From the NCBI GenBank assembly GCA_003707065.3, contig PPXM03000003.1, forward strand, positions 372,001 to 436,000: a DNA stretch of 64,000 nucleotides, written 5' to 3'. Source of the stretch: Trigonopsis variabilis (Eukaryota > Ascomycota > Trigonopsidomycetes > Trigonopsidales > Trigonopsidaceae). The notes beneath the pieces were generated by a model that was not told the DNA's origin, did not search any database, and was given only the letters and a program-made list of their open reading frames with translations. Of this stretch, positions 17,930-41,591 are shown in pieces; position 1 is the first letter of the stretch, and every line of letters begins with the position of its first letter. A program made the translations under genes and the position numbers.

Positions 17930-18541
17930 GCGTACGACTTTCCACCAAAAGATATCAATCTCTTGTCATTTCGTGCAAGATACACTATAGTTCGTCTCTG
18001 TCTTTTTCTTCTCGCCTATAAATATTCAGCTCCATCCAAACTTTTTGTATATAGTGGATTATAGCCATTAAGTTGACCCCAATCTCTTGTTCATACCATC
18101 CTATTGCCGCCCCAGCTGTACATCGGCACTTAAAATCAATATACGAGGCGGTTTATTGTGCACTAATCTGGGAATATGTATGCATATCTACGGCAAGTAC
18201 ATAACAGTCGTATTGCATCATCGCTAAGGCCGGAATACAGAGTCATACTATCAGCTATATTTCTTCAGATTTCGCAGTCATGGCACTCATTTGCATCCTT
18301 TTACCCCTTATCATCCAATTAAAGATTCACTCGCCTGTCTTATGCGGGTCGTATAAGCTCCTATCACCGCGGAGTTACAGCCGAAATGAGTCAGTCTTCA
18401 CGTGCAGAACGTTACCCTCTTTTCCTTATCATAAGGGAAAAAAATTTACATGTTAACCAACTCTATCCTGACCTTGGTTAGCTAATTATTGATTGGTCAA
18501 ATCATCAACGGGATCCTGAAACTACCCAACTAATTATTTAT
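17930..18541. promoter_or_regulatory. CPA1 upstream region
   Basis: 612 bp between CMC2 and the first codon of the CPA1 leader peptide; it holds the CMC2 3' UTR and the CPA1 promoter. Several short ATG-initiated frames occur (for example at 18386, ATG AGT CAG) but none resembles a conserved peptide. No gene seen. Confidence 0.4.
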
Positions 18542-18692
18542 ATGAGATTTATCTCAGTTTTCACTTGTCAAGTGAGTAGAAAGTTTTGGTCTCGGGTTTA
18601 ACCTTGCAGGACTATATATCAGGTAGGACCTATCTTCAATTTGGAGCGTCTGGCTAATACAAGATCATATTTGGAAGCGTTCCCAAGCTTAG
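18542..18692 (+). CDS. Arginine attenuator peptide uORF of CPA1, split by two introns
   Basis: A 23-residue upstream ORF assembled from 18542-18571, 18610-18622 and 18664-18692, removing introns of 38 nt (GTGAGT..GCAG) and 41 nt (GTAGGA..CAAG, branch CTAAT). Spliced, its core reads SVFTCQDYISDHIWK, which is the conserved core of the fungal arginine attenuator peptide (Neurospora SVFTSQDYLSDHLWRA; yeast CQDYISDHIWK). The Asp after Gln, whose change abolishes regulation in Neurospora, is residue 11 here. The peptide stalls ribosomes at its stop codon when arginine is high and lowers CPA1 translation. The stop ends 16 nt before the CPA1 ATG. Unspliced, the frame runs into TAA at once after the donor, so splicing decides whether the switch exists. 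Confidence 0.93.
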
Positions 18693-18708
18693 AATTGAAT
18701 TATAAATC

Positions 18709-20037
18709 ATGTTTTCCCGATTGTCTTACAGATTATCTTGCCGAACGGTTCCTATGGCCCAAAATGGTTTCAAGCGTTGGCTGGCCACGAGCACTGAGGA
18801 GATTGTTGATGCGAAAACCTTGGATCGTGCTACTTTTACAATCCAAAATGGACCTGTTTTTCACGGTCGATCATTCGGAGCGAATTTGAATGTGTCAGGC
18901 GAAGCCGTTTTCTCGACTGCCTTGGTTGGATATCCGGAATCGATGACGGATCCTTCCTACCGTGGGCAGATTCTCGTATTTACTCAACCTTTGATTGGCA
19001 ACTATGGAGTTCCTGCCGGTGTCCGGGATCAGTACAATCTTCTCAAGTATTTTGAATCTCCTCAGATCCAATGCATTGGCATTGTGGTCTCTAATGCTGC
19101 CATGGCTTATTCTCACTGGACCGCTGTCGAATCTTTGGGCCACTGGTGTCAACGAGAAGGAGTTCCTGCTATTACTGGAGTTGATACTAGAGCCATTGTG
19201 ACCTATCTTCGAGAGGAAGGATCATCTCTTGCTCGAATCACTGTGGGTGAAGAGTATGATGCTGATGAAGATGAGGCTTTTGTTGATCCTGCAGAAATTA
19301 ATTTAGTTCACAAAGTTTCCACTAAATCTCCGTTCCATGTTACTGCTAACGGAGATTTACATGTCGCTGTTATCGACTGTGGGGTCAAGGAGAACATTCT
19401 CCGTTCCCTTGTTTCTAGAGGTGCCAATGTGACCGTCTTCCCTTATGACTTTCCTATCCAGCAGGTCGCTCACCACTTTGATGGCATTTTCATTTCAAAC
19501 GGACCCGGTGATCCAACACATTGCTTGAAGACCGTTCACAATCTTCAGGACACAATGGAATCTTATCAAGGACCTATATTTGGTATCTGTTTGGGACACC
19601 AACTTCTTGCCCTTGCGGCCGGCGCCAAGACAGTTAAGCTCAAGTATGGCAATCGCGCTCACAACATCCCTGCTCTTGACTTGACTACTGGGCGATGCCA
19701 TATCACTTCTCAGAATCATGGATACGCTGTCGATGCTACAACACTACCGCCGTCATTTAAACCTTATTTTGTTAACCTGAATGATCAATCCAATGAGGGC
19801 ATGATTCATGTCTCTCGGCCCATTTTCTCGACTCAATTTCACCCCGAAGCTAAAGGAGGCCCTTTGGATTCGAGCTTCTTGTTTGACAAGTACGTCGACC
19901 AAGTCAGACAGTATAAACAATCCTTGCCTACTAGTACTGCCCCTAGTGGTCCTTCCTATGACGGCAATATTCTCTTCCGCGATATCTTGCCTAAAGAGCG
20001 AGTTGGCGTTGAAATTCAACGAGCAACAGCATTATAA
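18709..20037 (+). CDS. CPA1: Carbamoyl-phosphate synthase, arginine-specific small chain
   Basis: Glutamine amidotransferase subunit that feeds ammonia to the large chain (CPA2) for arginine synthesis. 442 residues, single exon. The first 25 residues ([20 protein letters not shown]) are Arg/Ser-rich without acids, fitting a mitochondrial presequence as in filamentous fungi. The CPSase small-chain domain runs to about residue 185 ([14 protein letters not shown]). The class I amidotransferase domain has the nucleophile Cys294 in GICLGHQL and His378/Glu380 in FHPE; all three of the catalytic triad are present, with the oxyanion strand NGPGDP upstream. Translation is expected to be arginine-repressed through the attenuator uORF immediately upstream. 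Confidence 0.96.
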
Positions 20038-22768: not shown

Positions 22769-24101
22769 ATGTCCTTGTCGGACAAGCTATTGAACCAACC
22801 AATTGTGATTGACAATGTGAGTAAAGCAATTCGCTGTACTAATATATTAAGGGAACAGGGATAATAAAGGCAGGCTTTGCCGGTCAGGAACAACCGAAAT
22901 GTTATTTTGCGTCGTGGTAAGATAAGCGTTATGTATTCGTGCTAAGTTCTCTAGTGTTGGGCGCCCAAAACATAATCGAGTAATGGCTGGGGCTCTTCAA
23001 GGCGACACGTTTATAGGAAGTCATGCTCAACAGCATCGGGGATTATTAAAGCTGCGTTATCCAATCAGTCATGGAATAATAGAAGACTGGGGAGATATGG
23101 AGCGGATCTGGTCCTACGTGTATGATGGGCCTGGTGAATACTCTTTGAGGGCTCATGCAGATGATCATCCATTATTAGTCACCGAAGCCCCTCTGAACCC
23201 GTCGTCAAATAGAGACCAAATGGCCCAGGTGTTATTCGAAACGTTCAATGTACCCGCACTATACATATCCATCCAAGCTGTTCTGAGTTTATATGCATCT
23301 GGTTCGACAACTGGGCTGGTTTTGGACTGCGGAGATGGAGTGTCTCATGCTGTGCCTATTTACCAAGGATTTGTGCTCAATAACGCTGTAAAGCGAATAG
23401 ATTTGGCGGGACGTGATATTACCGAACATTTACAGTTGCTTTTACGGAAGAGCGCGTCGGGTCTAGTATTTTTGTCTTCTGCCGAACGGGAAATTGTTCG
23501 ACGGATTAAAGAGACCTGCTGTTATATTCCTAAAGATCCACGGCAAGAAGAGATTCGTTGGGCTAGTTATCGGTTGAACTTGCTACGACAGCCAAAAGGA
23601 TCGAGAGTGATCAGCACCTCTAAGTCCAGAGTCACATCTGCTGCCAGCGCCGACACTGAAGGTGATGTGGATCAACCTCTTCGTCCAAGCACGTATACGT
23701 TACCCGATGGCCGTACAATTCAACTGGGAGCTGAGCAATTTAGAGCCAGCGAGATTTTATTCGACCCCGAAATCATTGGAGTAGAAAGCCTAGGTGTCCA
23801 TCAGCTCATCGCCGATGCTGTTAATCGGGCTGATCTTGACCTGAGATCAACTCTGTACTCTTCCATTGTTTTATCAGGTGGATCTACCATGCTTAGTGGA
23901 TTCGGTGATCGCCTTCTCCATGAACTCCATCTCCTGGCACCCAGGGATACGAAAATTCGTATCGTTGCTCCTCCTGAACGACGCTATACCACATGGATCG
24001 GTGGATCCATTCTAGCTGGCTTGTCGACTTTTAAGAAGATGTGGGTCAGCAAACAGGAATGGGCTGAAAACCCTGAATTGATCCATTCCAAATGTATGTG
24101 A
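22769..24101 (+). CDS. ARP1: Actin-related protein 1 (centractin), dynactin subunit
   Basis: Forms the short filament of dynactin that couples dynein to cargo. Exons 22769-22816, 22852-22916 and 22955-24101 (introns 35 and 38 nt) give 419 residues. Spliced, the N-terminus reads [19 protein letters not shown], the actin phosphate-loop pattern, then [61 protein letters not shown] (actin subdomain landmarks), [17 protein letters not shown], and the Arp1-type C-terminus [20 protein letters not shown]. It is about 40 residues longer than animal Arp1 because of an insert near residues 225-275, as in other fungal Arp1s. The final codons overlap a GTATGT, so a tiny last exon is possible. Confidence 0.92.
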
Positions 24102-27906: not shown

Positions 27907-29625
<1,719 letters not shown>

Positions 29626-32410: not shown

Positions 32411-32484
32411 TGATTCGACCCAGGATCGAACTGGGGACGTTCTGCGTGTTAAGCAGATGCCATAACCAACTAGACCATCGAACC
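32411..32484 (-). tRNA. tRNA-Val (AAC)
   Basis: 74 nt with no intron. The acceptor stem pairs GGTTCGA with TCGAATC (one G.U), discriminator A. Anticodon arm TCTGC-TTAACAC-GCAGA gives anticodon AAC (Val, GUU/GUC by inosine). T arm CCCCAG-TTCGATC-CTGGG; A box TGGTCTAGTTGG and B box GTTCGATCC are intact. The anticodon arm, variable loop and T arm are almost the same as in yeast tRNA-Val(AAC). No encoded CCA, as usual in eukaryotes. Confidence 0.96.
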
Positions 32485-38700: not shown

Positions 38701-41591
38701 ATGTCTGATGACAACTATGGGAGTTTTACTATCGAAGATGACGATCTGGCCGAGATTGAGAGATCAGAAACATTCATGAGTTCCTTTATGCCGTCATCGA
38801 CATTATTAGAGCCTCCTCACAATGTCTGCTCGCTGTCAAAGATACCACACATAGCATTAGACAATGGTACCATATCAAAGCCTAATCCAAAGAAATCGAG
38901 CCAAACGGCAAAAGTAGGATGGCAAGAGTCGTGGAAAGAGAATTTGGAAGCCGGTGTTGATGCTAGTAAGAAACAACGGTCAAAATCTAGCGGTCGAATC
39001 TTCACGAAGTCCTCGTCTGATGACAGATTAAGACAAATGACTTTATTTGGGAAAGTGGCTGATGTGGATCCAGAGCCGAGATCTTCACAAACCCCAAACC
39101 GAAGTCGAGGTTGGAGATCAAAGACTGAAGTATTTGAGGAAGGTCCTACACATCATGATTTGGTCCTAGAGGCATGCGATACATGGATTTATCCTTTGAA
39201 CCGGCCTGTACGTGGTTATCAGCGAGAGATCACTAAAGTGGCACTATTCAACAATACTCTTGTTTGTATCCCCACTGGACTAGGAAAGACTCTTATTGCC
39301 AGTGTGGTTATGTATAATTGGTGGCGATGGACTAAAGATGCCAAGGTTGTTTTTCTTGCTCCTACGCGACCATTGGTACTACAACAGGCTGAAGCATGTT
39401 ATAATATAATGGGTATACCGCGATCTCAGACTGCAATTCATACGGGACAGTTAGTACGCCCCGAGGGACGGGCTGAAAATTACGAAAGTAAACGAGTATT
39501 TTTCATGACTCCTCAGAATTTGGAAAATGATCTCGCAAGAGGGATAATTGATCCTAAATCTATCGTTTGCATGGTATTTGATGAGGCTCATAGGGCATCA
39601 GGAAACTACTCGTATGTGAAATTATGTCAAATGGTTTGTCAGATGAATAAATCGGTTCGGATCCTCGCTCTAACCGCTACACCAGGTAAGTTGATCTTTT
39701 TGAGTATGCACCTCTAATGACCACAGGAACTACTATTGAGGGAATTCAGCAACTACTAGCGAACCTTAATATCAGTCGCATTGAAGCCAGAACTGAAGAA
39801 AGCATGGACATTGCTCAGTTTGTTTACAAGAAACGAATTGATCGCCATTTGGTCTCGTTGACTCCAGACCAAGCCAAAGTGTTATCAATGTATTCGGAAC
39901 TAGTCGACAAAACTCGTCATCCGCTTGTTCAACGGAATATCCTTGACCGACACATCTCGGCTGATTTGCTATCTAATTTTCTGGTTTTGAAATCCATGAG
40001 ACAATACGCAGAAAAGATGAAGGGGAACCGAGGTCCTGAGTTCTTTGCAAACGCTGCCGTTCTGTCTCTTTTATCTAAGGCTTGCCACGCTACGGGATTG
40101 ATATCCGAACATGGATTGGGCGCTTTTTATACTTATATTTGTCGAATGAAGGAAAAAATGAACTCCAGCCAAAGCAAGCACCAGAAGAATTTTATCAATA
40201 GTGGGATTTTTAAGGATATCATCGAATTTTGTCAGGATACAATGGCTCAGCCTGGGTACTCCAGTTCGGCGAAAATGGACCATATGGTGGGGATAACTTT
40301 GGATTACTTTGATAGGTCCGATTTGTCAAAGAAAATTATAATATTTTGCGATATTAGAGACTCGGCTGTCGAGGTTTGCAAATTATTAGAGGCACATAAG
40401 CCTCTGGTCCGACCCCATATATTCATCGGTCAAGCTAAGCGGGAAGATGCAAGTGGTGGAATGACGCAAAAGATCCAGATGGAAGTCAGTAAAGGATTTA
40501 TTGAAGGCAAATACAATGTTTTAGTTTGTACATCTATTGGAGAAGAAGGTCTCGACATCGGAGATGTCGATATGATTATCTGCCACGATGTATCGGCCAA
40601 TCCTATTCGAATGATACAAAGAATAGGCCGTACTGCTCGCCAGAGGACCGGAGATGTGGTACTTTTAATGACGGACCGAGAAAACAAAAAATGGGACAAA
40701 GCCAACGATAACTATAAACAAATCCAAAGATCTCTAGCCGATCCTAATGCTTGGGATTTTTGCTCAAGTCATCGAATTATTCCTAGTCATATTGATCCTA
40801 TATACAATGCGCAGCTGATGGACATTCCTCTCGAGAACTCCCAGGGCAATGAGCAACGCCCCACAAAGCGAAAAACTTCCGATAGGGAAGGCGATCGATC
40901 GAAATCCACAAAGCGGATCAGAAAAGAGAATGCTGTCCCGCAAGGATCAAGTGGTTTTATGTCAGCTCGTAAGCTCGTCACTGACTATAAAATCCGAGCT
41001 CTCAGAGAGACTCGAGACTCCAGCGACCCTTCATCGAAGGCTTGGCAAGAGCGGGAATGTATATCTATACTAAATGCCAATAACTTGAGTCATGATCAGT
41101 GGGCTTTGTCGTCAGAAGAGCAGCAGGAGCTTTACATGGAATATGCGAGTATAAATGCTGCAGCGGGTCGAGGACAAGAGAATGTGGTTGAACTTCTCGT
41201 GGGCGAAAGTGATCCAATAAAAGCATTGAAAGGAAAAATATATCGTGGACTAACAAAGCCTGGGCGAGTCTCTGCTCGTCTCTATCGGATGGTCAATGAA
41301 TCGTGGTCTGTCCTGATGAATTCTGAAATCTTAGGCGAGAAAAACGATGAAATATCTCCAGGCAACCTCAGAGCTGCAAATAATAAGTGGCAAGAAGCTA
41401 ATATTGACGAAGAAAGTTTGGTCGGATCGGAAGTTGGACTAGATGCAATTTTTGAGGACTCTGAGAACGACAAATGGGACAACGAGTACCATAGAAACAG
41501 TTTAGATATAATATTCTCTGAAGAAGAGTCAGATGATGGTGGAGAATTCTTGGAACGGCTGGTGAATGGTAATAAACGCGTTAACAGCTGA
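38701..41591 (+). CDS. MPH1: FANCM-family DNA helicase Mph1/Fml1
   Basis: DEAH-box 3'-5' helicase that remodels D-loops and replication forks. Exons 38701-39685 and 39727-41591 (41-nt intron, phase 1, placed inside the motif TATPG) give 949 residues. Motif Q/I region VRGYQREITKVAL and PTGLGKTLIA near residue 190, motif II VFDEAHRASGNYSY near 293, motif III LTATPGTT, helical insert between the two RecA lobes, motif V CTSIGEEGLDIGDVD, motif VI QRIGRTARQRTGDV. The C-terminal 300 residues are poorly conserved and acidic, with a basic nuclear-signal-like KRIRKE. The length and FANCM-type insert separate it from Dicer and RIG-I relatives. Confidence 0.93.

Follow-up and report, generated by a model that had tools for sequence, protein, structure and literature searches.

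Directly upstream of the CPA1 gene of Trigonopsis variabilis, we identified an upstream ORF (uORF) whose predicted spliced product is confirmed as an arginine attenuator peptide of a known family. The best explanation, in which we place high confidence, is that this is an ordinary arginine attenuator uORF divided by two mini-introns of the usual size and signal, and that the mature mRNA works as in other fungi. The sequence itself, the family match, the intron-like signals and the position next to CPA1 were observed directly. The window referred to below is the whole stretch of DNA analysed, with a length of 64,000 nt and a GC content of 44.5%.

Removal of introns 1 and 2 (Table 1) leaves a 72-nt uORF of 24 codons, that is, 23 residues and TAG, with the product MRFISVFTCQDYISDHIWKRSQA*. 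The exon and intron coordinates of the preliminary description, together with the 16 nt that it gave between the uORF stop and the CPA1 ATG, proved exact on re-reading of the sequence. The Asp codon immediately after intron 1 (18610–18612) specifies the residue that pairs with residue 12 in the alignment to the Neurospora crassa peptide 2XL1, and a second Asp codon is divided by intron 2 (G/AT).

Table 1. Features of the CPA1 leader and gene (positions within the window)
Feature	Position	Strand	Description
Possible Gcn4/CPC1-type site (weak), TGAGTCA	18387..18393	+	Upstream of the uORF
uORF exon 1	18542..18571	+	30 nt; MRFISVFTCQ; ATG with T at −3
Intron 1	18572..18609	+	38 nt, phase 0; donor CAA/GTGAGT, 7/9 vs CAG/GTAAGT
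uORF exon 2	18610..18622	+	13 nt; DYIS and first base of Asp codon
Intron 2	18623..18663	+	41 nt, phase 1; donor CAG/GTAGGA, 7/9
uORF exon 3	18664..18692	+	29 nt; HIWKRSQA; stop TAG 18690–18692
Spacer, uORF stop to CPA1 ATG	18693..18708	+	16 nt
CPA1/arg-2 homologue (carbamoyl-phosphate synthase small subunit)	18709..20037	+	442 aa, single uninterrupted ORF

The spliced product was compared with Pfam and PDB. In Pfam, the sole family detected was Leader_CPA1 (PF08252; E 1.5e-13, 50.3 bits against a cut-off of 18.5), and in PDB the product matched 2XL1, ‘ARGININE ATTENUATOR PEPTIDE’ (E 3.8e-05), with no other distinct sequence at E up to 10. The cores of the two peptides are collinear and gap-free, with 11 of 15 residues identical, and QDY and HIW of the uORF lie opposite QDY and HLW of 2XL1, so that both the Asp (residue 12) and the Trp (residue 19) are present. 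Asp 12 of the Neurospora attenuator peptide is known to be critical, and Trp 19 is likewise important. Membership of Leader_CPA1 is thus indicated by a profile score above the curated cut-off, by the position of the uORF directly before the CPS-A small-subunit gene, and by the presence of the Asp and Trp residues. The identity of the peptide as proposed in the preliminary description was borne out by both database matches, and the critical Asp to which it pointed is there, with the refinement that the residue-12 equivalent opens exon 2 and that the Asp divided by intron 2 is the other one.

Next to the peptide, we analysed the signals of the two introns. Among the 21 GT dinucleotides between 18300 and 18708, the two uORF donors ranked first and second, and the next best matched CAG/GTAAGT at 5 positions. 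Intron 1 contains a branch-like TTAAC followed by 8 nt and ends with the acceptor GCAG, and intron 2 contains a branch-like CTAAT followed by 6 nt and ends with AAG. The introns used for comparison were hand-picked from the window by gene homology or reading frame, and comprised five short introns, in the genes for Arp1 (35 and 38 nt), an MPH1-like protein (41 nt), GAPDH (37 nt) and a CMC2-like protein (37 nt), as well as a 668-nt intron of the GAPDH gene. The joined Arp1 and GAPDH proteins aligned with PDB relatives across the junctions, and the MPH1-like and CMC2-like introns were placed by reading frame alone. All five short introns carried a similar branch motif 8–9 nt before the 3′ end, compared with the spacings of 8 and 6 nt in uORF introns 1 and 2. 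The two uORF donors were as good as or better than those of four of the six introns compared. Intron 2 was the less canonical: its donor hexamer (GTAGGA) is weaker, its branch motif lies nearer to the 3′ end, and its acceptor is AAG, an ending shared by Arp1 intron 1.

The Arp1 homologue (dynactin actin-related protein) lies at 22769–24101, with both of its short introns near its start. The GAPDH gene occupies 27907–29625, and its 668-nt intron (28102–28769) is far longer than the mini-introns of the window. At 38701–41591, two ORFs joined via the 41-nt intron (39686–39726) would, by frame only, form one helicase, which presumably resembles MPH1/FANCM. A tRNA-Val(AAC) is located on the minus strand at 32411–32484, and no Rfam family match was detected anywhere in the window.

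Compared with the hand-picked set, both uORF introns have the donor, branch motif, spacing and length of constitutive short spliceosomal introns, and their signals appear adequate rather than exceptional. Across the window, the short-intron consensus was not clearly enriched: it occurred 29 times on one strand and 18 times on the other, compared with a mean of 20.6 (sd 5.3) after shuffling. At least two matches were found in 40 of 2000 shuffled leaders. A separate pattern scan for short introns gave 48 matches compared with 40.4 in shuffles, the excess being confined to lengths of 35–39 nt (10 vs 3.1). Intron finding by codon score was dropped as too noisy, since it ranked the known introns low and gave high scores to many long false candidates. 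It is the peptide match that makes the attenuator assignment convincing; the intron signals alone would not convince. Taken from the sequence, the rank of the two donors as the best of 21 GTs and the likeness to the other short introns of the window suggest that both uORF introns are most likely removed constitutively.

We then read eight alternative forms of the leader: unspliced, with each intron alone removed, with exon 2 skipped, with three other acceptors and with one other donor. The whole core, SVFTCQDYISDHIW, was kept in none of the eight, in agreement with the earlier claim that it appears only when both introns are removed, and splicing would therefore be needed for arginine sensing. 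The unspliced form and that with only intron 2 removed encode 19 residues and stop at 18599–18601. For these two, the preliminary description was right that partly spliced leaders stop soon after the first donor; the form with only intron 1 removed departs from this, reading 25 residues to a stop at 18655–18657 within intron 2. With exon 2 skipped, the product has 23 residues and its frame closes 3 nt short of the CPA1 ATG. Two hypothetical cryptic-acceptor forms and the alternative-donor form would read 181 nt beyond that ATG, which should repress rather than relieve CPA1 translation. The product of the form with only intron 1 removed still scored 27.5 bits with Leader_CPA1 (cut-off 18.5) although it lacks SDHIW; a match to this profile alone is thus no proof of a working peptide.

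The loss of the core from every mis-spliced form leads to the foremost alternative, namely that splicing is a regulated second layer of control, in which conditional retention of an intron, more probably intron 2, abolishes arginine sensing and frees CPA1 from control by arginine. In its favour, intron 2 departs further from the canonical hexamer and acceptor than intron 1, and both retained forms stop within an intron. However, both donors match the consensus at 7/9 positions and equal or surpass those of four of the six other introns, splice dependence is expected for any intron-split coding sequence, and nothing here points to regulation. In addition, a uORF persists in the retained forms, which might stay in the nucleus or be degraded. 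We consider this alternative unlikely. The same low estimate applies to its consequence, that leader splicing gates arginine sensing, such that an mRNA retaining intron 2 (or intron 1) would be arginine-blind and splicing efficiency could switch CPA1 between feedback-controlled and feedback-free expression. The second control layer put forward in the preliminary description thus finds no support, the introns being like the other short ones of the window and their donors the best of the region, and the escape from arginine repression that it foresaw for partly spliced leaders is a matter of logic only: the retained forms would lose sensing, but a uORF is still present.

A further alternative treats the attenuator peptide as a relic, with a leader that is untranscribed or poorly spliced and no longer regulates CPA1. 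Decay would be expected of a relic, and the core is intact, the frame is open over three exons, both introns have usable signals and the uORF sits in the correct place before an intact CPA1; we therefore regard this as very improbable. For the possibility of a chance match, we generated 25,930 dinucleotide-preserving shuffles of 18300–18708, allowing any ATG and any zero to two GT-AG introns of 30–70 nt, and the best core identity obtained was 8 of 15 residues (seven times). Although two free intron choices offer many possible readings, a chance product is extremely improbable, because no shuffled leader reached at least 9 of 15 core residues, against 11 in the real leader, and the match sits before the one gene where an attenuator peptide belongs.

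According to two papers (PMC11550727; PMC2075485), fungal attenuator peptides arrest the ribosome on the stop codon of the uORF in the presence of arginine, which blocks scanning to CPA1 and exposes the mRNA to nonsense-mediated decay, and at low arginine CPA1 is made by leaky scanning. With the ordinary attenuator uORF preferred here, we infer that the leader is transcribed and spliced and that stalling, the arginine response and decay follow this pattern. Both mini-introns would be spliced from the CPA1 leader in the nucleus, and part of the scanning ribosomes would translate the uORF of the mature mRNA. At high arginine, the nascent peptide would hold the ribosome at the stop codon of the uORF and block scanning to the CPA1 ATG, and the stalled mRNA would probably be routed to nonsense-mediated decay; at low arginine, release of the stall and leaky scanning would allow CPA1 to be made. 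A T at −3 is common to the uORF ATG and two other predicted starts in the window (HDA1 and HRI1), and the −3 context is therefore no evidence for leaky scanning at the uORF.

The CPA1 ORF matched the Pfam families CPSase_sm_chain (145.3 bits) and GATase (glutamine amidotransferase; 179 bits). Its N-terminus (18709–18825) is Arg-rich, shows no homology until about residue 40, and looks like a mitochondrial presequence. On the 5′ side of the attenuator uORF, an extra ATG opens an 11-codon frame at 18450–18485 (MLTNSILTLVS), which could matter only if transcription starts above 18450. The sequence TGAGTCA, a possible but weak site of the Gcn4/CPC1 type, was not enriched, with seven copies in the window compared with 11.18 expected.

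This family of peptides is already known, as are its position and mechanism. Work by Hood from 2007 (Fungal Genet Biol 44:93), judging by its title, reportedly deals with the evolution of the gene and its uORF. Phrase searches of the literature library used here returned no report on introns inside uORFs, a result that leaves room for a prior description of split attenuator uORFs. Patterns were also searched in DNA collections: a degenerate DNA pattern for the attenuator core had no match in viral and genome contig collections, both of which are without fungal genomes, and none of the 29 stretches matching a CPA1 pattern in viral contigs was confirmed. This study adds a well-supported attenuator peptide from a fungus with mini-introns. 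It also carries a warning that scans of unspliced genomic DNA would miss such a uORF, since the core is absent from every unspliced reading. If intron retention did prove to control the leader, this would be a rare case in which splicing decides whether an mRNA senses a metabolite through a nascent peptide.

Among known systems, the Neurospora crassa arg-2 attenuator (2XL1) has the core identity to the Trigonopsis peptide given above, and both precede the gene for the CPS-A small subunit. The Trigonopsis uORF differs from arg-2 in that two introns must be removed, a comparison in which the Trigonopsis genomic copy was the only one inspected for introns. The likeness to the Saccharomyces cerevisiae CPA1 leader peptide lies in the Leader_CPA1 family, to which the Trigonopsis peptide was assigned by computation and the yeast peptide presumably belongs; we know of no intron in the yeast CPA1 uORF. 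Cryptococcus offers a likeness of another kind, an attenuator uORF in an intron-rich fungus. For its CPA1 homologue CND01050, a published study (PMC7049704) describes a uORF strongly occupied by ribosomes, a main ORF that is translated little and a 5-fold increase when upf1 is mutated, the occupancy and the sensitivity to nonsense-mediated decay being data on Cryptococcus.
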